NCBI GenBank assembly: GCA_024637305.1
Contig: JAGXFI010000145.1
Location: 1-33,253, forward strand
DNA length: 33,253 nt
DNA from: Sulfitobacter sp.
Lineage (GTDB): Bacteria > Pseudomonadota > Alphaproteobacteria > Rhodobacterales > Rhodobacteraceae
Direction of reading: 5' to 3'
Shown: positions 1 to 20,199 of the stretch, one piece after another
How positions within the stretch are numbered: the stretch's first letter is position 1
How the letters are laid out: every line of letters starts with the position of its first letter
Program-made: the position numbers and the translations under genes
Notes under the pieces: generated by a model
Databases searched by the model: none
Seen by the model: the letters and a program-made list of their open reading frames with translations, nothing else
Told to the model about the DNA's origin: nothing

Positions 1-1
1 C

Positions 2-124
2 ACAACGCTCGCCCCATCCAATGCTGCGTTAGTAAATATTACCGCCGCGATCTGCGAACAACACGAACGCCCGGTCGCCACTTGGCAACAGGCACGCGAG
101 ATACTTGGGCTGAGAAAAAGTTGA
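2..124 (+). CDS. 3' end of a probable BKACE family (3-keto-5-aminohexanoate cleavage-type) protein, partial
   Basis: An open frame enters from the left edge and gives 40 residues ending in a TGA at 122-124. The tail (about ..APSNAALVN..ICEQ..RPVATWQQAREILGLRKS) resembles the C-terminus of BKACE-family enzymes, zinc-dependent proteins that cleave beta-keto acids with acetyl-CoA. The catalytic part lies outside the window, so the substrate cannot be inferred. The stop is two bases from the CCA end of the tRNA-Arg 3' half on the other strand, so this is host DNA at the left edge of the island. The assignment rests only on remembered C-terminal similarity. Confidence 0.5.
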   Translation, partial: TTLAPSNAALVNITAAICEQHERPVATWQQAREILGLRKS

Positions 125-126
125 CT

Positions 127-171
127 TGGCGGACCCAAGAGCATTCGAACCTCTGGCCTCTGCCTTCGGAG
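127..171 (-). pseudogene. 3' half of a disrupted tRNA-Arg(CCG)
   Basis: On the minus strand this reads anticodon loop CTCCGAA, anticodon-stem arm GGCAG, variable loop, T arm with TTCGAAT, acceptor arm TGGGTCC, discriminator G and an encoded CCA. No 5' half precedes it. The missing half is at 10807-10849, and its acceptor arm GGACCCA pairs perfectly with TGGGTCC here. The T stem (AGAGG/GCTCT) has a G-G clash at the otherwise near-invariant 53-61 pair, as expected for a fragment no longer under selection. It marks the left edge of the island. Confidence 0.88.
161..171. repeat. attL core, 11-bp direct repeat
   Basis: TGCCTTCGGAG covers the anticodon loop and part of the 3' anticodon stem of tRNA-Arg(CCG). 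The same 11 bases recur at 10807-10817. Here the outer flank (GGCCTC) is tRNA sequence and the inner flank (CGGGCC) is island sequence. Joining the two outer flanks around one core restores a continuous tRNA gene, so this is read as attL. Confidence 0.85.
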
Positions 172-350
172 CGGGCCTAATGGTCTTTCCGAAACGTACG
201 ATAGAGTCCGCTAGAGCGCTATAATCATTGAAAAAATATAGACACAGCCACGCGCTGCGCCGAAAGCTCTATCCGAGAATACGCCTTGTTTTCCACCCGC
301 GTGATTGCGTGGTGCTTTCGCGGATTCGGGCGCAAGAGAGGGTTTGGAGC

Positions 351-701
351 ATGCCGAGGCTCACGAAACGATTTGTCGAAGCGGTCAAACCGGGACCCAA
401 GGGCACGGCGGTCTGGGATGACGAGATGCCGGGTTTCGGACTCCGTGTATACCCCTCCGGTAAGCGAAGTTACATCGTCCAGTACCGCGCGCGGGGACGA
501 TGCTGCCGCTACACGATCGGCCGGCACGGCGTCTGGACGCCCGAGACGGCGCGGCGGGAGGCAAGGGCCCTGCTCGGGAACGTCGCCCGAGGCAATGACC
601 CGGCCGAGGAACGCGAGGAGGACCGGAGGGCGCTGACGGTCAAGCAGCTCTGCGCGCAGTACATCGAGGATATCAGATGTGAATTGCTCGATCTACCTTA
701 G
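351..701 (+). pseudogene. truncated DUF4102-type tyrosine recombinase (integrase), N-terminal part only
   Basis: The ATG at 351 opens a frame of 116 residues that begins MPRLTKRFVEAVKPG and continues with WDDEMPGFGLRVYPSGKRSY. This is the typical arm-binding DUF4102 domain of P4-like integrases. Residues about 90-108 (ALTVKQLCAQYIEDIR) begin the core-binding domain, then the reading ends in an unrelated CELLDLP and a stop. Full-length members have about 400 residues, so the catalytic R-H-R-Y domain is absent. Its position 180 bp from attL suggests it was the island's integrase. Loss of the catalytic part would leave the island immobile unless helped from elsewhere. Confidence 0.85.
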
Positions 702-757
702 CGATAGTGCTAGTTTGAACAGTGTCTCTCGCGGGCAAATAAATGAGAAAGAAGAAG

Positions 758-1099
758 ATGCATATCTCGCGCATAAAAATTGAGAATTTCAGGAATTTTT
801 CCGAGCTAGATGTTGCCGTTGCAGGAAATATCGTCGTCGTCGGCGAAAACCGCGTCGGAAAGAGCAACCTGCTTGAGGCACTCAGATTGATCTTTGACCC
901 CGGAATGCCGGATAGCGCGCGTCAGCTAGGCCTCGCTGATTTCTGGGACGGACTCGAAGAGCTCACAGCCGACGACAAGATCAGTGTCAGCGTCGAGATC
1001 AAGGAGTTCGAGGGCGATCCCGACATTCTGGCGATCCTGACGGATTACCGCCTGGATGATGATCCGCATAGGCTCGCTGGCGGACGCACAACAACCTGA
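758..1099 (+). pseudogene. truncated OLD-type ATP-dependent endonuclease, ATPase N-terminus
   Basis: The frame starts MHISRIKIENFRNFSEL, typical of RecF/OLD-like ATPases, and has a Walker A loop GENRVGKSN about 30 residues in. Similarity fades near residue 105 (after RLDDDPH) and the frame soon stops. OLD proteins have 500-700 residues with a C-terminal TOPRIM nuclease, and nearly all of that is missing. The in-frame ATG at 743 is possible, but the ATG at 758 follows a GAGAAAGAAGAAG purine run and gives the conserved family start. OLD-type proteins include phage-defence nucleases such as GajA. This fragment alone cannot be assigned to a system and is most likely non-functional. Confidence 0.75.
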
Positions 1100-1154
1100 T
1101 CGTCGCACGGAATTGCGGCAACTCGACAGCCAGATTGGGCAAACACTTGTCAGG

Positions 1155-1502
1155 TTAGAAGAAGCAGTTCCTGTCAGCGAGCAGACAGATGTCAGCAACG
1201 GCCGGATCTTCCGGCTCGAGCAGCGCAAGGCAGCCATCGTCTTCCCAGTCATCATTACCAAGATGCTCGAGAAACAGGATGTCGCGCAACTCGAGCAGGC
1301 GCTGGCGCAGACGGTGCGTGAGCGGCCCGGGCTGATCGAGCCCGTCCAAGATGGCATTGACGAGCCTGGCGCCCCTGCGGCCTGCCAACAGCACGGCTGC
1401 ATGGCCAAGCGCATCGGCATTCGACGCCAGAAATGTCCGCAGCCCTGCTTCGCTGGACCTGCACGCGTCTGTCCCGTTGGGGATTATTTTTCCGTAATAC
1501 AT
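1155..1502 (-). CDS. hypothetical protein, 115 aa
   Basis: The ATG at 1502 has a strong Shine-Dalgarno, GGAGGTAAC directly upstream on the minus strand. This decides the start over an upstream in-frame ATG at 1562. The product begins MYYGKIIPNGTDA and is Leu/Ala rich and probably helical, with an acidic stretch NDDWEDDGCLALLEPED about two thirds in. There is no signal peptide or membrane segment. I do not recognise the family. The end (LLADRNCFF) looks abrupt: a one-base shift after LLADR would read ELLLLT then stop, so the C-terminus may be frameshifted. The overlapping plus-strand frame has no such start signal and is taken as its shadow. Confidence 0.5.
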   Translation of the reverse strand: MYYGKIIPNGTDACRSSEAGLRTFLASNADALGHAAVLLAGRRGARLVNAILDGLDQPGPLTHRLRQRLLELRDILFLEHLGNDDWEDDGCLALLEPEDPAVADICLLADRNCFF

Positions 1503-1743
1503 GTTACCTCCGATTGATGGTTGGTTGGTTGAGCGATCCGGGTTTCGTCCCGGCGGTGTCAAAAGGCTCGGAGGTATTCTTCATCGTCAGCCGCTGCGTC
1601 TCGCGCCTGCCAAAAAAGGCGCGCAGACCAGCGGATCGTCATTTGTCCTTTCTTCAATCGCGTTTCTTGTTTCCCTGCTTGTCGAAAATGAGATTGGCTG
1701 AAGTGCATAAACGCGAAGCATTTTCTTCGATTTCTGTAAAAAA

Positions 1744-1944
1744 GTTGCCCGGGTTGTGGCGGAAACGTTGATCGAGGGTGAGACGGTCAAGGGGGTGGCT
1801 GGGCGCTATGATCTGATCCCGAGCACGGTATCGGACTGGCGTCGCATGGCGCGGCAGGGCATCCTGGTGTTGCCCAATCTGGATGGCATGGCATTTGTGC
1901 CTGTTGAGATGGAGGAAGCGGCAGTGCCTGTCGGTGCGGGACGC
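1744..1944 (+). pseudogene. IS66-family TnpA fragment
   Basis: The frame reads VARVVAETLIEGETVKGVAG, then RYDLIPSTVSDWRRMARQG, LVLPNLDGMAFVPVEMEEA. This is the helix-turn-helix part of the small accessory protein TnpA of IS66-family elements. The 5' end is missing, similarity fades after about 65 codons, and neither tnpB nor tnpC follows. A second IS66 piece (tnpC) lies at about 8216-8341, so the two could be ends of one element split by later rearrangement or two separate insertions. Confidence 0.75.
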
Positions 1945-2027
1945 TCATGCGCGCGTTCGAGATTACAATTTATGATTTCATCTTTCGGCAGACAGGCACC
2001 GGTCCCCGCAATTCTGAACATATTCTT

Positions 2028-2051
2028 CCTTCCCGAACGAACTCGGGAAGG
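2028..2051 (-). terminator. hairpin downstream of the SbcC-like gene
   Basis: CCTTCCCGA and TCGGGAAGG form a perfect 9-bp stem with a 6-base loop, 44 bp beyond the stop codon of the leftward SbcC-like gene. No clear T-run follows on the minus strand, so it may be a weak terminator or a 3'-end stabiliser. Confidence 0.4.
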
Positions 2052-2094
2052 AAATGGGTCGGCCCTTGTCGGGACGGGAGAAATTAACCCCCTG

Positions 2095-4731
2095 TCAGGC
2101 CATTTGGTCTGGAATTTCGATTGTTGCGCGGGTACCACCGAGTTCTTCGAACGCCCGGGTGCGACAGGACAGAACGATGATCTGCTGATCCTTGGCGCTC
2201 CGTGTCAGTGCGGTGAACATTTTCACAATGCGATCATCATCCGAATAGACCAGGGCATCGTCGAGAATGACAGGCACTTTCTTTCCGGCCCTGGAATAGA
2301 GCTTGGCAAATGCCAGGCGCGTCAGGATGGCAATTTGCTCCGACGCCCCGCCGCTGAGCGTGTCGATCTTTTCGGCAATGCCATCCCTGACGATCTTGAT
2401 CGGTAGCATCGTGTCGGGATCCATTTCAACGGCGGCATCATCGTGCAGCATTGACAGCAAAGGCCCGATCTCTTTCTTCACGGGCTCGAAATAGGCATCG
2501 TGGGCTTGCTTGCGCGATGTTTCGAGATGGCCCCGAAGTTCACTGAGGGCTTCGACCTCGAATTTATAGCGCTCTGCCCGGCTGCGGGCTTTTTCGAGCT
2601 TCCCCCGGGTCTCCTCGAGCCGGGTTTCAACACCGTCATCCGCCCGCGCCCGGATTACCCCGCCCAGGATATTGAGCCGCTCCAGACGCCGCTCCCTTTC
2701 CTTCGTGGCATTGTCGCGTGCCGAGGCAAGCCGGGCCACGAGGGCTTCTGCTGCCTCCGTGTCAGGAGCCTCTTTCTGAAGTTCTTCGATGTCGGCCTTG
2801 ATCCTGGATACGGTGCCCTGCGCGGCTTCGAACGATTTTTCCATTTCGGCATGTTCTTGCGCGGACAGTTCTGCCGCGGCAGGCGCTTCGAGCGCCTCGA
2901 GAGCAAGACTGTGCTTGGTGCGGGCCGCGGTTGCCAGGCCGGCTGCCGCCTCATGAGCCAGGCGCGTCTCATCCTGGTAGTCAGCAGCAATGCGCTCCTT
3001 CTCCTCGGCGGCGGAAACCCGTGACTGCAGGTCATCCACATCAATGACCTCGCCCTCGTCGTCAGCATCATCCTCTTCGATGTCATCGAGATCGCGGCGC
3101 AGTTGCTCTGTGCCATCGGGCACCAGTGTTTCGATCGATTGCCGCGCAAGAAGCTCTTCGCGCTCGGCATCGGTGCGGCGCCGCATTTCGAATCTGGCGG
3201 CCTCCATTCCATCAAGCTCGAGATCTGAAAGCAGCGTGGAAATCTGCGCGGCAATGTCGTCGGGATCCTCGGCGTCGCTACTGCCCGCAATCCGTGCGGG
3301 CGCAAGTTTCATCGATCCGATCCCGGGAAGTTCGATATTCATATCGCGCAGTAGCGGAATTTCCTTGTTTTCGGGAAGAGGCTGATCTGCGTCCATCAGG
3401 ACGGTTTGGCCGGCATAGCTGACTTGCAGGGTCGCGGCTCCGGCCTCCCGCAGGGCTTTTGTCGTGACAAGGTTCTGGGTCAGGGTGTTCAACCGGTCCA
3501 GATCTTTCTGGGTGATCCGGATATCGCGCAGCGTGGCGGCATGGGCCTTGCGCGCCTTTTCGAAGGCGTCGACCTTGGCAAGCAAGGCGACCAGGTTCTT
3601 TCGCTCTTGCGCCTTTTGACGTCGATCGAGTCTTTTGCGGGCTGCAGAGAGTGTATCGCGGGCAGATTTCAGGTGCGACCTGACATCCCTGAGATCGAGT
3701 GTTGCCTTTTCGTGAGCCTTTTTGGCTTTTTCGGCATCGACGCCGGTCACCTTTGCCGCGTCCTTGGTGACCTTCTCTGCGGTTTCCAGTCGTTTGCGCA
3801 AAGCCCCGGCTGCTGCGTCGGCGTCGATCCTGTCCTTGCAGGCTTTTGCTTCGAGTTCTGCCAGTCGCAGATCGCGCTGGCGCTCGACGATGTGACGCGC
3901 ATGGCCCTGGGCATCCTCGAGAGCCTTCTGGGCGCTTTTGATCGCCTGATCGCGCTTGGCCGCAGCATCGGGATTTTCGCTGGCTTTGTGTGCGGCCTTG
4001 ATCTGTGCGTGCTCGCGCAGAGCCTGCCCCAGCTCGGAAACCTGACTTGCAAGACGGGTTTCCTCGGCCTCAAGATCTTCGACCCGCTTTACCGCCTTGT
4101 TCCATTCGCCCCCGGCCTTCGGTTGGCCGGTTCTGGTGGCGAGGGCATCGAGATCTGCCTCACAGGCTTTCATGATCTGGTCCATCCGGCGACCGCCGGT
4201 AACATTGTCGATCTGCCCGGCGACAGAGGACATCAATGTCTGGCGTGCCTCCCTGAGCTTCTCGCGTTCGCCTTTTTCGCGTGCGCCACTGCCGTCGGGA
4301 CCAAAGCCCGAGATCCCCTGACGGACCCAGAGGAGGCCTGCGGGGCCATGGGCATCCGCGCCGATCAGTGTCTTGATCCATTGCTCGGCTTCGTCCGCCT
4401 GCGCAATCAGGCGATCTGTGGCAAGGTCGGTGATGGTTGCGCTCTTCGAGGCCATGTAACGTTTTTCGATCCGGAACGGATTGCCGTCATCATCCTCGAC
4501 ATCGACGGAAATCTCGACCGCACCCTTGGAATGAGGTTGCAGGGAGCGGACCTCCAGCGGCTGACCTGAGTGCGGATAGAAAAAGATCGCGTGCAGGGCA
4601 TCGAAAAAAGTCGATTTACCCGACTCGTTGGGTGCACAGATCGTCGTGATACCATCTGCGAGTCCCGATATCCGCGCGGTGGTGCCCTGGAAGCGACGGA
4701 CATTCTTGAGAGTGATCGCACGAATTTTCAT
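2095..4731 (-). CDS. SbcC/Rad50-like (YhaN-type) AAA ATPase, 878 aa
   Basis: This looks like the ATPase subunit of an SbcCD/Mre11-Rad50-like DNA-processing complex in the cytoplasm. The N-terminus MKIRAITLKNVRRFQG leads to Walker A APNESGKST (33-41). Near the C-terminus are the ABC signature LSGGASEQ (about 792), Walker B VPVILDDAL (about 819-827) and a D-loop-like SDDDR. Long charged heptad-like stretches lie between about 180-420 and 540-730. No CxxC zinc hook is visible. Instead the middle (about 430-520) is a non-helical, beta-looking segment with LQVSYAGQTVLMD and ELPGIGSMKLAPAR, presumably at the apex of the coiled coil. The start overlaps the stop of the nuclease gene by ATGA, so the two are one operon. 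At 878 residues it is shorter than E. coli SbcC (about 1050). Confidence 0.85.
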   Translation of the reverse strand: MKIRAITLKNVRRFQGTTARISGLADGITTICAPNESGKSTFFDALHAIFFYPHSGQPLEVRSLQPHSKGAVEISVDVEDDDGNPFRIEKRYMASKSATITDLATDRLIAQADEAEQWIKTLIGADAHGPAGLLWVRQGISGFGPDGSGAREKGEREKLREARQTLMSSVAGQIDNVTGGRRMDQIMKACEADLDALATRTGQPKAGGEWNKAVKRVEDLEAEETRLASQVSELGQALREHAQIKAAHKASENPDAAAKRDQAIKSAQKALEDAQGHARHIVERQRDLRLAELEAKACKDRIDADAAAGALRKRLETAEKVTKDAAKVTGVDAEKAKKAHEKATLDLRDVRSHLKSARDTLSAARKRLDRRQKAQERKNLVALLAKVDAFEKARKAHAATLRDIRITQKDLDRLNTLTQNLVTTKALREAGAATLQVSYAGQTVLMDADQPLPENKEIPLLRDMNIELPGIGSMKLAPARIAGSSDAEDPDDIAAQISTLLSDLELDGMEAARFEMRRRTDAEREELLARQSIETLVPDGTEQLRRDLDDIEEDDADDEGEVIDVDDLQSRVSAAEEKERIAADYQDETRLAHEAAAGLATAARTKHSLALEALEAPAAAELSAQEHAEMEKSFEAAQGTVSRIKADIEELQKEAPDTEAAEALVARLASARDNATKERERRLERLNILGGVIRARADDGVETRLEETRGKLEKARSRAERYKFEVEALSELRGHLETSRKQAHDAYFEPVKKEIGPLLSMLHDDAAVEMDPDTMLPIKIVRDGIAEKIDTLSGGASEQIAILTRLAFAKLYSRAGKKVPVILDDALVYSDDDRIVKMFTALTRSAKDQQIIVLSCRTRAFEELGGTRATIEIPDQMA

Positions 4732-5858
4732 GACCGCACCCCGGCTGCATAATCGTAAAGACGGCCAAGGGCTGCGGCGGAAACCTGGCGTTCGGTCTCG
4801 GTCCGGCTTTCGTCGTAGCTGTCTTTGGCGATTTGTTCTGCTGCTGCCCGCAAGGCACCTCCGGTGTCGATTTCGTCCAGATCACCGGCTTGCTGCTCGA
4901 TACTCAGGGACTGGAGATCGGATTCGAAGAAGCTGAAATCGTCGGCAGCCTGCGTGAGGGTCGCATTGAGCAGGGCGCGCTCCGCCAGACTGAGCCGCCC
5001 AGTGCTGCGAAAGACGATCAGGGCCCGGCGGCGCGTGGAGATGTCTGGCAATTCGGTGTTCAGGCGATCCTCGATGTCGTCACCGGTCCGAAAGTCGGCC
5101 TCTACCTCAGACCATGTGAAATGACTTGTAGGAACGATGTCGACCGATGGCTCACTGCCGCGCGCCGCGATATCCACCAGCAGGGCCCCTGCCCCGTCCT
5201 GATGCTTGAAGTTATCGGCCTCGGGCGTACCGCTATACCAGCAACGCGGCCCGACGCGTATGCGCCCGTGCCAATCGCCCAATGCAAGGTAATCAAGGCC
5301 GGCCCGTGCAGGGCGATCCGGGGGGATGATGCCAAGTGTGCTGTCTTCACCGAAATCCTGAATGGATCCGTGGGCAAGGCCGACAATAATCCGGTTTTCG
5401 CTTCCTTCAGGCAAATCGACATCGTCCATCCACTCGGTCAGGTCGCGCCCGGGGTTTCGGGATGTCGGTGGCGCGGGCAGGATGACGAGATCGTCTCCGA
5501 TAAGGATCGGCTCCGGCGCAAGAGCCAGGATGACATTGTCCGGCTTTTCCCTGGCCATTCTGTCCCAGAGGTCGCCGGCGGCGAGACTGTCGTGGTTACC
5601 GGGAAGCACGACCCAGGTGACATCCTTTTCCGCACCAAGAGCGCGAATGGTATGACGCACCACTTGAGGGTGGGGTGTTTCGGCATCGAATGTATCCCCT
5701 GCAAGCAGAACCAGCCCTGCTTCGCCGCGCCGTGCGATGTCGGCCAGGGCGGAGATCTTCTCATGTCGGGCTTCGCGCAACCGTCCGCGCAGATCCTCGT
5801 CAAACCGGCCGAAGGGCTTTGCGAGATGAAGGTCGGATGAATGCACGAATTTGACCAA
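4728..5858 (-). CDS. SbcD/Mre11-like (YhaO-type) metallophosphoesterase, 376 aa
   Basis: This is the probable nuclease partner of the adjacent ATPase. All the metal-binding motifs of calcineurin-like phosphoesterases are present: SDLHL (D9, H11), GDTFD (54-58), GNHD (87-90), LAHG (H163) and GDWHG (D195, H197). The C-terminal 170 residues are the variable capping region that contacts the ATPase in known complexes. The start is TTG at 5858, supported by GGGAG seven bases upstream; no ATG fits before the conserved SSDLHL. It comes first in a two-gene operon with a 4-bp overlap. It sits inside a mobile island, so it is more likely an accessory or defence copy than the housekeeping SbcCD. A role in phage or plasmid restriction is inference. 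Confidence 0.86.
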   Translation of the reverse strand: MVKFVHSSDLHLAKPFGRFDEDLRGRLREARHEKISALADIARRGEAGLVLLAGDTFDAETPHPQVVRHTIRALGAEKDVTWVVLPGNHDSLAAGDLWDRMAREKPDNVILALAPEPILIGDDLVILPAPPTSRNPGRDLTEWMDDVDLPEGSENRIIVGLAHGSIQDFGEDSTLGIIPPDRPARAGLDYLALGDWHGRIRVGPRCWYSGTPEADNFKHQDGAGALLVDIAARGSEPSVDIVPTSHFTWSEVEADFRTGDDIEDRLNTELPDISTRRRALIVFRSTGRLSLAERALLNATLTQAADDFSFFESDLQSLSIEQQAGDLDEIDTGGALRAAAEQIAKDSYDESRTETERQVSAAALGRLYDYAAGVRS

Positions 5859-6300
5859 GTAATTTCTCCCAGAAGAATGCCGTCACAAAAACGATCGTGA
5901 GCGGAGGATAACCTTTGGAGAATCTTGGCCGAAAGGCCTTTTTACAAAGAAATTCGAGAATATCAGATCAAGGATAGGGAGAGGCCCCTCGGAATCGCCA
6001 CACTGGCCCGCCGTATGATGGGGGCCGCCGCGATCATGGCAATGATGACGGACCGCATGACGATATTGACTGTCGAGCCGGCAAGGAATGCCGGCAAGCG
6101 TGGTCTGGACAAAGCCGATCCAGAGGCAGGACCCCTTGCACCTCATGTGTCGGCTCAGACTGATCTTGAAGAGGAATTCACCATTCCCTGGGGAGGCTAT
6201 GAAATAACGGCCGTCCAGTGTTTGGGCATTGAAGCCCTGGTCTTGGGCAGGTTGGATTATACGCAAAGAGATATGGACATCCTGGTGCCTATCGACCTCG
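5859..6300. other. unassigned stretch upstream of the SbcD-like gene
   Basis: This stretch must carry the promoter of the leftward SbcCD-like operon. A plus-strand frame with a TTG start (5925-6311, 128 codons) and an overlapping minus-strand frame (5883-6332) are both open, but neither has a good ribosome site or a motif I recognise. A short inverted repeat GCCGGCA/TGCCGGC lies at 6077-6095. I see no defensible gene here. Confidence 0.4.
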
Positions 6301-6531
6301 CACTGGCATGAGGCTGATCGCGTTCTTCGCACAGCACTACTGGTGATCGGTGAGCAACTTGCTGGGCGCGGGCGACTTCATGTCGCCGAGATCGGCTCGA
6401 TTTCCATAGCGAGGCGTCCGCCGAGGCGCTACTTCAATCCCAGAACAAAAAGTGAGGCCATCTCTGAAGGAGATGTTTCTCTGAAGATCAACATCTCCAA
6501 ACAGATGCGAAAGTGCATCGATAAGGAGTAG
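6301..6531 (+). pseudogene. HU/IHF-family DNA-binding protein, 5'-truncated
   Basis: The frame reads EADRVLRTALLVIGEQLAGR, then LHVAEIGSISIARRPPRR, YFNPRTKSEAISEGDV, SLKINISKQMRKCIDKE. This matches the second half of an HU-like protein: the beta-arm entry (GxGSF replaced by EIGSI), the PPRR-x-x-NPRT DNA-contact segment, and the C-terminal K-x-S-x-x-M-R-x-x-I. The N-terminal dimerisation helices are not encoded. Upstream the frame becomes a Trp-rich, unrelated string back to an ATG at 6229. Either the 5' end was replaced by recombination, or a fusion of about 100 aa is made. Confidence 0.6.
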
Positions 6532-6571
6532 GAACCCTGCGCGGTCAAGGGTCGGGTGATCGTGAATGGGG

Positions 6572-6606
6572 GACCCGGAGAAGCCTGGCGGAGGCGGCTC
6601 CGGGTC
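6572..6606. terminator. stem-loop after the HU fragment
   Basis: GACCCGGAG and CTCCGGGTC form a perfect 9-bp stem. The enclosed sequence can form a second short stem, GCCT/AGGC. GATTTAATT follows on the plus side. It lies 40 bp beyond the HU-fragment stop and fits a plus-strand terminator, although the T-run is broken. Confidence 0.45.
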
Positions 6607-6850
6607 GATTTAATTCAGGGTGGTGAACGCGGGAAAAATCCATCCCTGCTGCCGCTCCGAGCTTCCCTCGCGGGCAAATTTCTGCAGGCGTAACCGGCGC
6701 TGATTCAAGCGAATATATATCTTCCCAATTCGGGACTTTGGCTTCAGGTTGGGATTATTGATAAGCAAAATGCGATTGGCCAGCATGTTCAAGAAAACTC
6801 TATCGTTCATAGTCGGATCATTCTGAATCATTTTCAGAGCCGGACGGGTC
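6607..6850. other. intergenic stretch, no firm gene
   Basis: This region lies between the hairpin and the rightward membrane-protein gene. A 73-codon minus-strand frame (6610-6831, start MIQNDPTMNDRVF, basic C-terminal half) is divergent from that gene but has no recognisable motif. It is left unannotated. The region should hold the promoter of the membrane-protein gene. Confidence 0.35.
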
Positions 6851-7537
6851 TTGGCCTTTATTTTTTTCCTCAGCTTCTTCGTTGCCAGTCACACGATCAC
6901 AGCACTGGCAGCAATCACAAGCACTGCAATTTCGGCAGTGACCGGAACAACATCCACTGTTATGGGCCGCTCGAAAGCCACGGCGCGCGACCTAACCGCG
7001 CAAAACAAACTTTTAAGGACCGATCTCGACGATGTCCGGCGCCGCAATTCCGGCCTCGTTGCTGATAATGCGCGCCTTCGAAGAGAAAATATCGTGACAT
7101 TCAGGGGGCGGCCTACGATCGTCAGGCAAGCCTCACGTGAAGTTCTTGACAGCACAATGGCGCGAACGACACGGTCAACCCTCGCAAACGTGTCCAGTAT
7201 TCCAGGTGAAAGTATCCCGGTCTACGGGATTGCCATTGTCCTGGCGGCAACAGCCTACGAGATCAATGCCGCCTGTGACAACATGAAGGATCTCTACGAG
7301 CTTCAAGTCGCAATTGATCCTGAATCCGCCCGATCCGATGACAAAAATTCCGTTTGCGCCATAGAGCTTCCCACAAAAGAACAGCTTTGGCAGAATTTCA
7401 AAGACTCCCCGCAGACTACCTGGGATGCGAGTATTGCAAAGATTGGAGACATATCTGACAGCGTCACAACGATGGAGCCCCCCGAATTTGGCGGTATGTG
7501 GCAGAGATTCATGAATTGGGTCACGACACGGCTTTAA
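6851..7537 (+). CDS. membrane-anchored coiled-coil protein of unknown function, 228 aa
   Basis: The product has a strongly hydrophobic N-terminus (residues about 2-31, one or two membrane passes). A heptad-rich charged stretch follows (about 45-82: DLTAQNKLLRTDLDDVRRR and DNARLRREN). A second hydrophobic segment lies at about 121-140 (IPVYGIAIVLAATAYEI), then a Cys-containing soluble tail (C142, C168) ending WQRFMNWVTTRL. I do not recognise a named family. The start is probably TTG at 6851, because an in-frame TGA lies about 25 bases upstream and the next ATG would remove the membrane segment. GGACGGG upstream can serve as the ribosome site. Base composition is more AT-rich than the flanking host genes, as expected for acquired DNA. 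Confidence 0.65.
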   Translation: MAFIFFLSFFVASHTITALAAITSTAISAVTGTTSTVMGRSKATARDLTAQNKLLRTDLDDVRRRNSGLVADNARLRRENIVTFRGRPTIVRQASREVLDSTMARTTRSTLANVSSIPGESIPVYGIAIVLAATAYEINAACDNMKDLYELQVAIDPESARSDDKNSVCAIELPTKEQLWQNFKDSPQTTWDASIAKIGDISDSVTTMEPPEFGGMWQRFMNWVTTRL

Positions 7538-7820
7538 GAGGTAGACCAGCCGATCTGTTTTTGGCTGCATGAGGGGTATGACCGCCCAGAAAAGCGCCAA
7601 GTTCCGCGCCTTGCTGCGCTGAAGGTGCGCCGAGCGCATCATGATGCCGGGCGATGCATTGCCCTGACCAGTCGAAAGCCCGGTGGTCGGACTTCGTTCT
7701 GGGCAGGTAGTTTGCCGAGTTGCGTGCCACCGGCTGCTAAGTCTTCCACGAGACCGGATCAGTTATGTGGAAGGTCCGCGCTGTGGCACCTCAGAAGCGG
7801 CGGGTGAAGCCCATTGCGTG
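7538..7820. other. debris region, no recognisable gene
   Basis: Frames on both strands are open for 60-70 codons at most and show no motif I can assign. The stretch joins the membrane-protein gene to a ketoacyl synthase fragment and is probably scrambled remnant DNA. Confidence 0.4.
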
Positions 7821-8215
7821 CTATGCAAAAGTTGTCTGGTCGCGGTGGAAGTCATGGCGGGTCACAACGGACTGGATCTGGCAAAATTCCCATCCGCTGG
7901 GATAGGTTCTGAAAAGGCTGGTGTTTTGCGCCGCCGGATCAGGGGTCAGGACAGCCGCCGCCGCTCCATCGCCGAACAGGGCGGCTGTTTCGGGATCGGT
8001 TTTTCAGGGCAGCGTCCGGCTCGCCACCTCCGAGGAGACGATCAGGGCTTTTTCATAAGCCCCGCCCCGCATCATCTTGCCGACCTTGTCGATGGCGCAG
8101 AGGAAGGAGAGGCATGTCGTGTTAATGTCGAATGTTTCGATCATCCTGTCTGCGATCCCGAGGTTACCCATGAGGATTGCCGAGGATGTCGGGATTGGCT
8201 GGAACAGCACCGCAA
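7821..8215 (-). pseudogene. 3-oxoacyl-ACP synthase III (FabH-like) fragment with internal stop
   Basis: The minus strand reads QPIPTSSAILMGNLGIADR, then MIETFDINTTCLSFLCAIDK and YEKALIVSSEVASRTLP. It then meets an in-frame TGA and continues in the same frame with KTDPETAALFGDGAAAAVL, ending TRHDFHRDQTTFA. This is the central part of a KAS III (FabH-type) enzyme, with the active-site Cys in the DINTTCLSF motif. The TGA stands where family members usually have Trp (TLPWKTDPE). Both ends are missing, about 130 of 330 codons remain, and the right end abuts IS66 sequence. It is dead. Its origin could be a lipid or secondary-metabolite gene. Confidence 0.75.
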
Positions 8216-8341
8216 AGGCAAAAACGATCAGATCAAACTCGCCGATATCCGGCTGGAAAAGCTGATGGCGGACTTCAAGCGGGCGCAGTTTGGTTCCAAA
8301 TCCGAGAAGGTTGATCCAGATCAGTATCAATTGGCTCTGGT
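8216..8341 (+). pseudogene. IS66-family TnpC transposase, N-terminal fragment
   Basis: The frame reads KNDQIKLADIRLEKLMADFK then RAQFGSKSEKVDPDQYQLAL. This is the leucine-zipper-like N-terminal segment of IS66 TnpC, with its RAQFG-x-x-SEK motif. After QLAL the similarity stops, so the DDE domain is absent. It lies directly against the FabH fragment, suggesting that an insertion or deletion at the IS end removed the rest of both genes. Confidence 0.72.
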
Positions 8342-8848
8342 GTTTCAACCCAAAATCAAACGAGGTCGCCACAAAACGCGGCCAGCGCATCGGGCCGAAA
8401 CTTCGATCGTGACTGAAATTTCGGTGTAGGCGATCTGAATAGAGCAGATTCTTAGCCAATTGGCGCGTGTGGCAGAAGGAACACTTCTCAAGTCGTGAAA
8501 TTGCGCGCAACTCAGGTCATTAGAATGACTTTCGCATTCTACCGAGGGCCAGATTTCACTCCCATGACTTTCAGCACATCATCTTTTCCGGTCTTGAAGA
8601 CGCCCAAACCATCCGTGACACGTCGGACGGCAGATACGCCAGAGCGGTAACGACCGCCCAGAGGGTGTTGCCATCGAGGTATCCTGTTGGCGACCCTGCA
8701 CACCCCCCCTACCGAGATCCCGTCCTCAACCTCCATCCCGGACCGCGGTCCCTCCCCTGCTTGCATCCCTCCTTGAAATTCCCTGCCTTGTATTGCCGCG
8801 CAAAACTGCGATGAGTTTTGAGGCGAATGCTTTCATGGAGGCTATGAA
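8342..8848. other. intergenic stretch of about 500 bp upstream of the ASCH operon
   Basis: No frame has recognisable motifs. A pyrimidine-rich run (CACCCCCCCTACC, near 8700) precedes the start of the rightward two-gene operon, whose promoter must be here. GGAGG at 8837-8841 is the ribosome site for the TTG start at 8849. Confidence 0.4.
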
Positions 8849-9397
8849 TTGAAAGACGATGACAGACGGATCTATACTGCCCAGGATATGTCAGGGATAG
8901 CGGAGCAGATTTTGGTCCTTGTCGGCAAGATCCGGGAGGCCAAAGTTTGCATTGAAGGGAGCGAGAGCGTCTATTTCAATGTGATAGGTGATGCGATGGA
9001 AGAGTTTCTGGACTTCCCCGATGTCGCGACGCTTACCGAAAGACTGGTTGAAATCCAGAATGATCCAGACAGTGCGCTTGACCCTTCAATTTTCGAGGAA
9101 AGAGAAAGCACTTACAAGACCGACACACCTGAGGAATCTCACATCCTGCAAAGACTGACGCGCAACCGGCTGCGCGCAGGTGAACGCGACTATTCCTTTG
9201 ACGACGTGCACTTCGATCATCTCGGACGCCCGCCGCGCGCTGAGAGGATCATTGACGCGCTTCGCGAAAAGATCAGGGAGCAGGAAACACTGAGCGGTGG
9301 CATCGACCTCCTGCTGGAGAATGTAGCCGCCTTCCAGGAGCTCCACGATGCTTATACTGAGGTACCTAAGCAAGACTTGAAGAAAGAACTCAAATGA
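8849..9397 (+). CDS. acidic protein of unknown function, 182 aa, first gene of the ASCH operon
   Basis: The TTG at 8849 is preceded by GGAGG at 8837-8841. The ATG at 8845 is out of frame and stops after two codons. The product is acidic and probably all-helical, starting MKDDDRRIYTAQDMSGIAEQ and ending PKQDLKKELK. It has no signal peptide or membrane segment. I recognise no domain. Its stop overlaps the start of the ASCH gene (ATGA), so the two are translated together and probably act together. Possible roles are a partner subunit or an antitoxin-like regulator, both inference from the arrangement. Confidence 0.65.
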   Translation: MKDDDRRIYTAQDMSGIAEQILVLVGKIREAKVCIEGSESVYFNVIGDAMEEFLDFPDVATLTERLVEIQNDPDSALDPSIFEERESTYKTDTPEESHILQRLTRNRLRAGERDYSFDDVHFDHLGRPPRAERIIDALREKIREQETLSGGIDLLLENVAAFQELHDAYTEVPKQDLKKELK

Positions 9398-10266
9398 CCG
9401 TAACACGCGGCCTGATCATCGCCGAACCCTGGATCGACCACATACTCGAGGGCCGGAAGGACTGGGAGATGCGCTCCCGGCCAACTTCGGTTCGCGGCTG
9501 GTTCGGTCTTATCCGAAAAGGCAGCGGCACGGTCGTGGGACTCGCTCGGCTCGTAGAGTGTGGCAAGGCGCTCAATCAGGCAGAGATGCTCGCCAGCAGC
9601 GATCGCCACCGTATCCCCGAGGTCATGATACGACGTGGCGAGGTCGCAAAGTGGGTGGTGCCCTGGAAACTCGCCGACATCATCCCGCTCGACCGACCTG
9701 TGCCTTATGAACACAACGCCGGCGCGGTCACCTGGGTCACCTTAAGCCCTAATGTCAGCCGTCAGTTGGCAACGTATCTTGCCCAAGAGCCCCCCACGGC
9801 CGAAATCCAACCGGCGCCCCCGGCCCGAGTGGTCGACCATGTCGCGGCTCTGTCCCCCACCCCAGACACTGCGGCCAATCCGGCCAGGCGGAAAGCTCCG
9901 GATCGGGCACCGATGCCGCCGTTGCCGGAGGGCCACCGCAGAGTGCTCGGCCGGAGCGTGCTGAGTGGAGGCAACATCCGAAACAACCACATGAAGCTGG
10001 CATCGCTCATGCACGCATTTCCCCGGGACGTGATCGGAGGATCCAACAAGACGGAGGCCGCACCACGTAATCTGGAAATCGACTGGGGCGGGCCCGAACC
10101 AGTCATGACAGACATAGACGGCACGAAATCGATCTTTCGCGCCCGAGGATGGGTCCGACGTTTCTTCGCGGCATCAGATGCACATGAGGATGATACCGTC
10201 GTCTTTACCGAAACCGCACCCTACCGGATCAGCGTGCGACTCGAACCAGGCAAGCCGACGATGTGA
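9394..10266 (+). CDS. ASCH domain protein with a B3-like C-terminal domain, 290 aa
   Basis: Residues about 5-120 form an ASCH (PUA-like) domain: GLIIAEPWIDHILEGRKDWE, then MRSRPTSVRGWFGLIRKGSG and TVVGLARLVECGKAL. A Pro/Ala-rich linker follows (about 130-180). The C-terminal part (about 190-285) contains NNHMKLASLMHAFP, IGGSNKTEAAPRNLEIDWGG, TDIDGTKSIFRARGWVRRFF and DDTVVFTETAPYRISV. That pattern resembles B3-like DNA-binding pseudobarrels. ASCH and related EVE domains bind RNA or act as readers of modified bases, and B3-like folds occur in DNA recognition domains of restriction enzymes. No nuclease motif is seen. The 4-bp overlap with the upstream acidic gene implies joint function. The B3 assignment is from sequence pattern only. 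Confidence 0.7.
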   Translation: MTVTRGLIIAEPWIDHILEGRKDWEMRSRPTSVRGWFGLIRKGSGTVVGLARLVECGKALNQAEMLASSDRHRIPEVMIRRGEVAKWVVPWKLADIIPLDRPVPYEHNAGAVTWVTLSPNVSRQLATYLAQEPPTAEIQPAPPARVVDHVAALSPTPDTAANPARRKAPDRAPMPPLPEGHRRVLGRSVLSGGNIRNNHMKLASLMHAFPRDVIGGSNKTEAAPRNLEIDWGGPEPVMTDIDGTKSIFRARGWVRRFFAASDAHEDDTVVFTETAPYRISVRLEPGKPTM

Positions 10267-10632
10267 CACAACAAAGGCCATGTCCTGCGCCCCCGTATAA
10301 AAGCTCTGACATGAGCTACTGCCACACCGGGGAAGACGCAGTTGCACTGGCAATGCGTAGAATACCTCGGCCGCCTTGGGGACGATCAATGCTGCACACC
10401 TGCCGTGGGCCTGTGGGCTGGTTTTCGATGACCCGGGTGGCCACAGGCTGACGTTTCGGTCGAACAGCGAGCAGTCCGACAGATCCGGGATCGGGCGTCG
10501 TCCTGAGGCCTAATACTTAAAAGCGCTGATCACTGCTCCGTGTGGTAGATCCGAAAACATTGAAAAGTTCGCAGTATGGTTCCTGCTTCGATCCGACCCG
10601 CAGTGTCCGGTGTTTTATTGGCGGTAGTGTGG
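10267..10632. other. 366-bp stretch between the ASCH gene and the tRNA, no gene seen
   Basis: Short frames exist on both strands (up to about 70 codons), but none has a ribosome site with a recognisable product. It probably holds the ends of both transcription units, which converge here. No strong hairpin with a T-run stands out. Confidence 0.4.
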
Positions 10633-10709
10633 TGGTGGTCCCGGCGCGATTCGAACGCGCGACCTTTCGCTTCGGAGGCGAACACTCTATCCAGCTGAGC
10701 TACGGGACC
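10633..10709 (-). tRNA. tRNA-Arg(CCG), complete, carried by the island
   Basis: On the minus strand a full cloverleaf of 77 nt can be drawn: acceptor GGTCCCG/CGGGACC, D stem GCTC/GAGT, anticodon stem TTCGC/GCGAA with loop CTCCGAA (anticodon CCG, reading CGG), T stem GCGCG/CGCGC with TTCGAAT, discriminator A and encoded CCA. It differs from the split resident tRNA in the acceptor, anticodon-stem and T arms, so it is not a duplicate of it. It lies 97 bp inside the right att site. A possible promoter upstream is TTGCAA with TATAGA 15 bp on, close to attR. It probably supplies the decoding lost when the resident gene was split. Confidence 0.95.
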
Positions 10710-10717
10710 ACATTTTA

Positions 10718-10759
10718 GGCCAAGTTTCTGTGCGGTTTCTGTGCGATCTCGACTTGGCC
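10718..10759. repeat. tandem 11-bp direct repeats framed by an inverted repeat
   Basis: GTTTCTGTGCG occurs twice head to tail (10724-10734 and 10735-10745). The pair is framed by GGCCAAG (10718-10724) and CTTGGCC (10753-10759). It lies between the island tRNA and attR. Short direct repeats beside the core are typical of arm-type integrase binding sites, which DUF4102 domains contact. The inverted repeat could also fold in the leader of the tRNA transcript. Both roles are inference. Confidence 0.55.
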
Positions 10760-10806
10760 AATCTGATTTCTATATTACCTTTCAACGACTTGCAACCATA
10801 GCAAAA

Positions 10807-10817
10807 TGCCTTCGGAG
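10807..10817. repeat. attR core, 11-bp direct repeat
   Basis: A second copy of TGCCTTCGGAG. Here the inner flank (GCAAAA) is island sequence and the outer flank (GGCAGC) continues as the 5' half of tRNA-Arg(CCG). Confidence 0.85.
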
Positions 10818-10849
10818 GGCAGCGCTCTATCCAGCTGAGCTATGGGTCC
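10807..10849 (-). pseudogene. 5' half of the disrupted tRNA-Arg(CCG)
   Basis: On the minus strand: acceptor GGACCCA, TA, D arm GCTC..GAGC, anticodon stem CTGCC, loop CTCCGAA (anticodon CCG) and GGCA. The sequence then departs into TTTTGC. Acceptor and anticodon stems match the half at 127-171 base for base. The resident promoter should lie to the right of this half, so a truncated transcript may still be made. It lies 50 bp beyond the sufS stop codon. Confidence 0.9.
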
Positions 10850-10899: not shown

Positions 10900-12120
10900 T
10901 CAAGCAAAGAGATCATGTGCCAGCTCTAGCGCTTCGACCAACGTATCGATCTCCGCTTCGGTGTTATACAGCCCCATCGAGGCGCGGCATGTGGCGTTCA
11001 ATCCAAGATGGGTCATCAGTGGCCCCGCGCAATGTTGCCCTGCCCTTACCGCCACACCTTTCTTATCCAGAATGGTCGATATGTCATGCGCATGCGCCGC
11101 ACCGTCCAACGTCATACTGAAAATTGCGGCCTTGTCCGGGGTTGTTCCCTGAATCTGTAACCAATTGAGACCGCCCAGTTTTTGCACAGCATAGTCCCGC
11201 AACCGGTCCTCATGTGCGGCAATGTTGTTCATCCCCAGCCCCATCATGTAATCCAGCGCGACGCCCAGCCCGATTGTCTGAACAATGCCGGGGGTACCTG
11301 CTTCGAACTTCATCGGCGGATCGTTATAGGTTACGTTATCCTTCGTTACCTCACGGATCATGTCACCTCCCCCGATAAAAGGGCGCATTTCGGCCATGCG
11401 ATCAGCCTTGATGTAGATCGCCCCCGAACCGGAGGGACCGTAGAGTTTATGGCCGGTAATGGCATAGAAGTCACAACCGATTTCGCTGACGTCGACGGGC
11501 ATATGCACCGCCGCCTGCGATCCGTCGACCAGCACCGCGACACCTTTGGCGTGAGCCGCGTCTGTGATGGTTTTTACTTCAACTTTAGTCCCCAAAACAT
11601 TGGAAAGATGGGTTATTGCGATAAGCTTGGTGCGTGGAGTGATAACATCGATCACCTTTTGAGGGTCCAACGCGCCGGTGCTGTCCGTGTCCACCCACTT
11701 CAGCACGACGCCTTGTCGTTCTCTGAGGAAGTGCCAGGGAACAATATTGGCGTGATGCTCCATCACGCTGAGGATGATTTCATCGCCGGCTTCCATACGA
11801 GGCATCGCCCATCCATAAGCAACGAGGTTGATCCCTTCGGTCGTTCCCGAATTCAAGACGATCTCTTGCTCGGACGCGGCACCGAGGAACCTTGCAATGG
11901 TTCCACGCACCGCTTCATATTTGTCGGTCGCCAGGTTAGAAAGATAATGCAAGCCTCTGTGAACATTTGCATATTCCATAGAGTAGGCTTGGTTAACGGC
12001 GTCGATGACCGCTCTGGGCTTTTGCGCCGACGCCCCGTTATCGAGATAAACCAAAGGCTTGCCGTTCACTTCCCGGGCAAGAATTGGAAAATCCTTGCGG
12101 ATCGCGTCTACGTCAAACAT
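10900..12120 (-). CDS. sufS: cysteine desulfurase SufS, 406 aa
   Basis: A group II PLP-dependent cysteine desulfurase, which takes sulfur from cysteine for Fe-S cluster assembly in the cytoplasm. PLP lysine K225 lies in ITGHKLYGPSG, and the persulfide-forming cysteine C364 in RAGQHCAGPLM, the short-loop form of SufS. The N-terminal YLDNGASAQKP and RGLHYLSN motifs are also typical. Its length matches E. coli SufS (406). It is the last gene of the suf operon here. Its ATG overlaps the stop of the upstream YIP1-like gene by 8 bp. SufS usually needs SufE or SufU for activity, and neither gene is in the window. Confidence 0.96.
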   Translation of the reverse strand: MFDVDAIRKDFPILAREVNGKPLVYLDNGASAQKPRAVIDAVNQAYSMEYANVHRGLHYLSNLATDKYEAVRGTIARFLGAASEQEIVLNSGTTEGINLVAYGWAMPRMEAGDEIILSVMEHHANIVPWHFLRERQGVVLKWVDTDSTGALDPQKVIDVITPRTKLIAITHLSNVLGTKVEVKTITDAAHAKGVAVLVDGSQAAVHMPVDVSEIGCDFYAITGHKLYGPSGSGAIYIKADRMAEMRPFIGGGDMIREVTKDNVTYNDPPMKFEAGTPGIVQTIGLGVALDYMMGLGMNNIAAHEDRLRDYAVQKLGGLNWLQIQGTTPDKAAIFSMTLDGAAHAHDISTILDKKGVAVRAGQHCAGPLMTHLGLNATCRASMGLYNTEAEIDTLVEALELAHDLFA

Positions 12121-19615: not shown

Positions 19616-20199
19616 CTGAAAGGCTCGACCGCCAGATTGCGTTTCTCAACGAGGCGGACAAACTAAAGACCATCGTGCGCGGCACCACGCTTTGCGATGC
19701 GTCGCGCTATGAGAACTCCGCCGAGCATTCGTGGCATCTGACGCTTTATGCTCTGGTGCTGGGCGATCAGGCGGGGCCGGACGTCGACTTGGTCCGCGTT
19801 ATCAAGATGTTGATCCTGCATGATCTGGTGGAGATCGACGCGGGCGACAACCCGATCTTCGGCGAGCTCGATCACGACGCCATCGCAGTTGAAGAGACCA
19901 AGGCGGCAGAGCGCATATTCGGTCTTCTACCGTACGATCTGAACAGCGATCTGCGCGCCATCTGGGAAGAATTCGAAGCGGCGCAAACGCCTTCCGCCAA
20001 ATTCGCCAAATCCCTCGACCGCTTTCAACCGCCGATGCAGAATCTGATGTCGGGTGGCGGCAGTTGGATGGATTACAAGGTCACCGAACACCAGATCGCC
20101 GCCCGCGTCGGATCCAAGATCGCGATTGGTGCGCCAGATCTGTGGACCTACGCCAAGGCCCGCATCTCCATGTGGTTCCAGTCGTCCGGAAACGCGTGA
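19612..20199 (+). CDS. HD domain phosphohydrolase (YfbR/HDDC2-like), 195 aa
   Basis: A metal-dependent phosphohydrolase related to the 5'-deoxynucleotidase YfbR. The HD signature residues are visible: H39 in NSAEHSWH, H70-D71 in LILHDLVEIDAGD, and D136 in SLDRFQP. Length (195) is normal. The likely substrates are deoxynucleoside monophosphates, by family. It is last in a three-gene unit and precedes icd by 93 bp. Confidence 0.86.
   Translation: MTERLDRQIAFLNEADKLKTIVRGTTLCDASRYENSAEHSWHLTLYALVLGDQAGPDVDLVRVIKMLILHDLVEIDAGDNPIFGELDHDAIAVEETKAAERIFGLLPYDLNSDLRAIWEEFEAAQTPSAKFAKSLDRFQPPMQNLMSGGGSWMDYKVTEHQIAARVGSKIAIGAPDLWTYAKARISMWFQSSGNA

Follow-up and report, generated by a model that had tools for sequence, protein, structure and literature searches.

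Several described mobile elements cut a transfer RNA (tRNA) gene of their host and bring one of their own. In tRNA-dependent lysogeny, known from the mycobacteriophage Fionnbharth and other actinobacterial phages, the need for the tRNA was proven with mutants, and the prevalence of the principle beyond these phages is raised as a question (PMC10865867). Rhizobium phages such as vTRX32-1, which are Autographiviridae-like, use a 12-bp motif of tRNA-Leu as their site and carry a full tRNA-Leu without that motif, the presumed replacement for the cut gene (PMC8631192). Prophages and islands of Sinorhizobium meliloti inactivate tRNA-Leu(UAG) by integration and replace it with an element-borne isoacceptor closer to those of other species, a replacement termed curious and poorly described by the authors (PMC11476347). 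Here, we analysed a 33,253-nucleotide stretch from Sulfitobacter sp. (contig JAGXFI010000145.1), referred to as the window, in which the two halves of a tRNA-Arg(CCG) gene flank a genomic island with a complete tRNA-Arg(CCG) of a different type inside it. The sequence evidence suggests, with a probability of about 0.85, that such islands integrate in a tRNA-dependent manner and that the carried tRNA stays as the element decays.

The window is contig C180 of a draft genome of 3.65 Mb in 183 contigs, 91.9% complete. The gene is split in its anticodon loop and its halves are separated by an island of ~10.6 kb; the core common to both, TGCCTTCGGAG, was found on the minus strand at positions 161 and 10807 only in the whole window. 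When joined by script, the halves gave 77 nt that were called Arg(ccg) by ARAGORN, with 7/7 acceptor pairs and 5/5 anticodon-stem pairs, and 76 of the 77 positions matched unsplit genes from two other genera (G335, locus L080; G128, locus L090). The original prediction of two facing halves of one gene, with a common core and perfectly pairing stems, was confirmed in its coordinates as well. Neither half alone was called as a tRNA, and both junctions hold halves, none of which regenerates the target gene. The sole mismatch of the joined gene falls on window base 142, where a G at position 61 breaks the G53–C61 pair. This G53–G61 clash had been predicted and is present, but window positions 1–141 match the last 141 bases of contig C106 exactly, so that the clash is the first base past an assembly overlap. 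This suggests a branch of the assembly graph at that base, and the population may be mixed, with the sound base in some cells. The right contig end of the window showed no overlap with any other contig.

A second copy of the left flank gene was observed on contig C113 (L105, G000:C113:4314-4455), 85% similar to window positions 1–142. It ends in ~16–20 nt of the same tRNA 3′ end, which also has a G at position 61; next to it comes a transposase-like gene that resembles IS110 by eye. As this copy shares the G61 change, the change may predate the decay of the window island, or the agreement may be chance.

The cysteine desulfurase gene at 10900–12120, which we take to be sufS, served as the fixed neighbour for the comparison with relatives. 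A sample of 30 sufS loci was drawn from the window genome and same-genus relatives, and 29 of them held one tRNA-Arg(ccg). In 23 of these 29 loci the tRNA is intact and starts 48–114 bp from sufS, and in locus L040 the distance is 123 bp. In the window (L034) and in L037, L047, L055 and L061, the complete tRNA lies 194–389 bp away, and a cut 5′ half was found within this gap in the first four (strongly altered in L037); none was seen in the gap of L061. In the window, 54 bp separate the end of sufS from the start of the 5′ half, within the distances of the intact genes in relatives, so that by position this half is in the native place of the tRNA gene. The predicted insertion into a gene that is unsplit in relatives is therefore borne out on the sufS side.

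Two further observations concern this locus. In L035, L045, L046, L053, L060 and L062, the tRNA-Arg(CCG) near sufS has a G-U acceptor pair (GGACCCA with TGGGTTC), as if 5′ and 3′ halves of different origin had been fused. In Yoonia maricola (L226), an integrase fragment with the 3′ half, at 9.8 kb, lies ~9.6 kb from an intact tRNA-Arg(CCG) near sufS (19637–19713) and no orphan 5′ half was seen; recombination of the orphan half with the carried tRNA may have repaired this locus.

The single tRNA called by ARAGORN in the window is Arg(ccg), at 10633–10709 on the minus strand and ~100 bp inside the junction with the 5′ half, which agrees with the predicted replacement tRNA of the same anticodon. 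We propose that an element with a tyrosine integrase entered the tRNA-Arg(CCG) gene next to sufS at its anticodon loop. Given the fact that the element and the gene would share only ~11 bp, no tRNA would be remade at either junction and the gene would be cut in two. The cell would survive because the attachment arm brings a complete tRNA-Arg(CCG), which would be expressed and would from then on be the sole CCG gene left intact. The old gene would come back on exact excision, whereas a cell that lost the carried tRNA in any other way would be expected to die or to pay a cost. The element could thus decay and the tRNA would be retained by selection.

The recurrence of the layout was determined with a pattern that requires a second tRNA start 88–148 nt after a CCG 5′ half, with the reversed pattern as the control. 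The layout was obtained in 17 of 394 genomes of the family and the control in none of the 394; three more genomes of the same sample (G145, G229, G234) show it with changed letters, which gives 20 layout genomes in the family sample. The finished 1.58-Mb replicon of a Pseudorhodobacter turbinis isolate holds sufS together with the orphan 5′ half and a similar spacer, and its carried tRNA does not differ from that of the window. A carried CCG tRNA was present in all 24 right ends read. Nine genomes with both halves were compared. In eight, the genome's own halves form 12/12 acceptor and anticodon pairs, as opposed to 15 of 72 swaps between genomes; five of these nine genomes (G138, G121, G340, G443, G229) have the halves on different contigs. 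Among phage records, no place covered 80% of the window right end, and the matches listed resemble ordinary tRNA genes. The search for the same arrangement in other genomes was thus positive; the case is not unique, and its principle has been published as tRNA-dependent lysogeny.

The layout is linked to one integrase clade, that of the window integrase. We analysed 60 integrase loci, comprising 47 upstream stretches and 13 loci from the family sample, and a split 3′ half of the CCG tRNA was found upstream of the integrase in 53. The 60 do not include the window, L118, whose gene is close to the end of its contig, less closely related integrases (L121–L135 and matches without loci) and L221, L224 and L227, whose match starts past the N-terminus; L199 and L108, as well as L200 and L107, are apparently the same loci and were counted twice. 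No complete tRNA was called by ARAGORN upstream of the integrase in the 47 stretches. The clade spans many alphaproteobacterial genera, and named carriers with the half include Jannaschia donghaensis, Boseongicola, Hyphomonas pacifica, Maricaulis maris, Breoghania corrubedonensis, Aurantimonas marianensis and an Erythrobacter.

Larger elements with both ends were found in genomes G360, G292 and G209, with the integrase and the 3′ half at one end and the orphan 5′ half and the carried tRNA at the other. In G360 and G292, sufS adjoins the orphan half and the carried tRNA, and the end that holds the integrase and the 3′ half is ~59 and ~70 kb away, respectively; in G209, the ends are ~46 kb apart, on a contig whose first bases belong to the 5′ half, and sufS is not adjacent. 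The G360 and G292 integrases match PF00589 and PF13356, and the window copy PF13356 only. Among 10 open reading frames (ORFs) scanned in the G360 element, the matches included the integrase and, as putative conjugation genes, TrbI, a coupling protein and a TrbE/VirB4-like ATPase. The 10 ORFs scanned in the G292 element gave BrxA, PglZ and BrxL domains, a methylase, and ParB_N and ArdC domains. No phage structural domain was among the Pfam matches of the 10 window, 10 G360 and 10 G292 ORFs, which are a subset of the ORFs.

BREX-type defence genes were observed within the both-ended G292 element (L153–L154). In G297 (C1, 2514810–2749907), sufS shares a contig, at a distance of 235 kb, with an integrase that has a 3′ half, and no orphan 5′ half was seen beside sufS; a giant island, a rearrangement or another site are possible, and this genome was excluded from the element count.

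The islands would work like tRNA-dependent lysogeny, which likewise involves a tyrosine integrase, a short core in a host tRNA gene (~10 bp there) with no tRNA remade, an element-borne tRNA of the same isotype and paired putative arm sites beside the core (PMC10865867). Since no phage structural domain was found in the scanned ORFs, they are likened to that system and not classed as members. They further differ from it in being alphaproteobacterial islands known from sequence, of which one bears conjugation genes and another BREX genes, in using tRNA-Arg(CCG), in having the tRNA inside the attachment arm and in leaving remnants that keep the tRNA. Compared with the vTRX32-1-like phages, the tRNA is another one and the carried copy keeps at least CTCCGAAG of the core, and the whole native stem in some genomes (PMC8631192). 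For S. meliloti, the accessible part of the report describes no tRNA-Arg(CCG) case, integrase clade, remnant series or repeated replacement (PMC11476347). Islander islands share the tyrosine integrase, the anticodon-centred crossover and the tRNA fragment at the island end, but regenerate the target at one junction, which neither junction does here (PMC4383910). In that collection 2083 of 3919 islands are anticodon-centred, so that such integration is common and not the minor class assumed by the original prediction. A Paracoccus prophage has been recorded at tRNA-Arg(CCG) (PMC6536676).

Under general decoding rules, CGG codons are read by a tRNA with a CCG anticodon, which they are expected to need. 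CGG accounts for 64 of the 323 arginine codons in 12 ORFs to the right of the island and is present in 11 of the 12. We searched 23 layout genomes for CCG genes by their 5′ motif with at most one mismatch, a search that genes with more motif differences would escape, and the intact match was the carried tRNA alone in all 23. The remaining matches were the orphan half (in G024, only the carried tRNA was matched), CCT-type genes, one stretch in G072 and a duplicate in G209. Neither of the last two was accepted as a further gene: the G072 stretch, with one mismatch, is not called as a tRNA by ARAGORN, and the third CCG match of G209 repeats the orphan half, as two contigs overlap there exactly over 141 bp. 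The window draft, which is incomplete, gave 28 tRNA matches above the cut-off, with ccg and cct as the only arginine types; the suggested scan of the genome for other CCG genes revealed no further intact one. Eleven of the 20 family-sample layout genomes keep the carried tRNA with no integrase of this clade at E ≤ 1e-25 (other integrases may be present). This persistence indirectly backs the suggestion that the island is an addiction-like resident, which is plausible from the sequences.

Several observations weigh against tRNA-dependent integration as proposed here. The halves of G443, one of the nine genomes compared, mismatch each other. Seven of the 60 integrase loci lack the half; four of these have just 102–238 bp upstream, but L219, L228 and L229 have 420 bp and no half. 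On the left side of the window, the comparison with unsplit relatives failed from flank to flank, as the left neighbour gene, presumably BKACE-type, adjoins no ARAGORN tRNA in 29 loci, 27 of them from relatives (1.5-kb flanks). The window integrase is truncated and the action of its relatives is deduced from sequence, as are the expression of the carried tRNA and the need for it. The motif search for CCG genes tolerates one mismatch only and several of the genomes are drafts. Finally, the two ends of the window differ in their repeats, with TGATTGCG and TGCTTTCG on the left and GCACAGAAAC on the right, and the right end may not be that of this integrase.

Because of these different repeats, the island is probably composite. 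Two successive elements would have used one site, a GCACAGAAAC type that left the right end with the carried tRNA and a member of the TGCTTACG-repeat integrase clade that left the left end, with deletions between them. The same tRNA swap would have taken place, and the visible integrase would not have placed the visible tRNA. We lean towards this history, given that TGCTTACG-like motifs occur at both ends in G360, G292, G209 and G138, that the window island is short and broken, and that its right-end type, also seen in G025, G027, G145, G241 and P. turbinis, yielded no both-ended element; many other right ends carry GTAAGCAC-like repeats. The GCACAGAAAC pair occurs in four viral contigs, near the tRNA 3′ end in three (L231–L233), where it likely marks phage attachment sites, and it therefore looks like an integrase arm site. 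Two points argue for a single element instead: the window showed neither an internal junction nor a second core, and G174, which has the closest integrase (91%), shows left repeats like those of the window with its right end off the contig, so the type could normally mix repeats.

A different view of the locus, in which the tRNA at 10633–10709 is the host gene, the halves are leftovers of old attachment sites of an ordinary decayed island and no swap occurred, appears very unlikely. Relatives do have a complete tRNA-Arg(CCG) near sufS, some of the same general type, and tRNA fragments are often found beside islands. However, the native distance is held by the orphan 5′ half and not by the complete gene, the halves fit each other, the spacer and tRNA recur as a unit in other genera, and the large elements have both ends. 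An artefact of a metagenome bin that joins pieces of different genomes, which the 183-contig draft, the 141-bp overlap with C106 at the left end and the similar overlap in the G209 draft might suggest, is scarcely credible, as recurrence argues strongly against it, with the right-end structure on the finished replicon of an isolate and both ends on single contigs in G360 and G292.

Under tRNA-dependent integration, the carried gene could itself become a target. In G443 (contigs C5 and C15), the integrase-side half is identical in sequence to the corresponding part of the tRNA that G443, G360 and G229 carry, and this distinctive half with a GCCGA stem was also found in L111, L117 and L183, which suggests that an element split a tRNA delivered by an earlier one. 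Altogether, 13 of the 53 integrase-side halves equal some carried 3′ half; for the GGCGG and GGCAG types, the agreement could also come from an identical native gene, which leaves the four cases of the GCCGA type as the ones that count for serial replacement. We give about even odds to a joint reading in which a clade of conjugative and defence islands in Alphaproteobacteria persists by exchanging the sole tRNA-Arg(CCG) of the host. Every integration would destroy the resident gene and put that of the element in its place, and the new gene would outlive its element and could be split by the next, a serial ratchet that would show as orphan halves beside sufS and integrase-side halves identical to carried tRNAs.

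The features of the window are collected in Table 1. The window island is a decayed remnant: three of its 10 ORFs scanned against Pfam had no match, none of the 10 matched conjugation genes, and transposase-like fragments were also found. The reading frames of the SbcC-like and SbcD-like pair (2095–5858) are unbroken amid this debris.

Table 1. Positions of the split tRNA gene, the island genes and the putative attachment features in the window.
Feature	Position	Strand	Basis or remark
3′ half of split tRNA-Arg(CCG), encoded CCA at end	127..171	-	joined gene compared with L080 and L090
Left copy of the 11-bp core TGCCTTCGGAG common to both halves	161..171		
Putative integrase arm-type repeats (TGATTGCG, TGCTTTCG)	298..325	+	role inferred; other members have TGCTTACG-like repeats there
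Truncated tyrosine integrase, arm DNA-binding domain only	351..701	+	PF13356, Arm-DNA-bind_3
AAA ATPase fragment	743..1099	+	PF13175
SbcC-like ATPase, island cargo	2095..4731	-	SMC_N, AAA_15, AAA_23, weaker matches
SbcD-like metallophosphoesterase, island cargo	4728..5858	-	PF00149
ORF with IS66 transposase leucine-zipper match, probably a remnant	7683..8429	+	PF13007, E 8.3e-6
ORF with weak ASCH-domain match	9394..10266	+	PF04266, 21.0 vs 21.2 bits, barely below curated cut-off
Complete carried tRNA-Arg(CCG), different type from split gene	10633..10709	-	ARAGORN; identical to Pseudorhodobacter turbinis copy
Inverted repeat (GGCCAAGT...ACTTGGCC) around GCACAGAAAC repeats	10718..10759	-	sequence only
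GCACAGAAAC direct repeats, putative integrase arm sites	10724..10744	-	role inferred
Putative promoter-like TTGCAA-17-TAGAAA ahead of carried tRNA	10767..10795	-	by eye
Orphan 5′ half of split tRNA-Arg(CCG)	10807..10849	-	native distance from sufS
Right copy of the 11-bp core TGCCTTCGGAG	10807..10817		
sufS-like cysteine desulfurase gene	10900..12120	-	fixed neighbour for locating the locus in relatives

No published island that splits tRNA-Arg(CCG) and carries a whole tRNA was located by title or start of abstract, a search that left subscription journals mostly outside its scope. The principle is known for phages; what looks new is its use by islands of this kind, its alphaproteobacterial spread and the hints that replacement is serial. 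An integrase clade in many alphaproteobacterial genera, borne by islands with conjugation or BREX genes, is indicated by this case. Natural tests exist in the both-ended elements, the integrase-less remnants and the unsplit relatives. If the proposed integration is true, mobile DNA can hold its host by a tRNA swap with no toxin required, the layout would make the newcomer's tRNA hard to lose, and the presence of foreign tRNA genes at native places would be explained.

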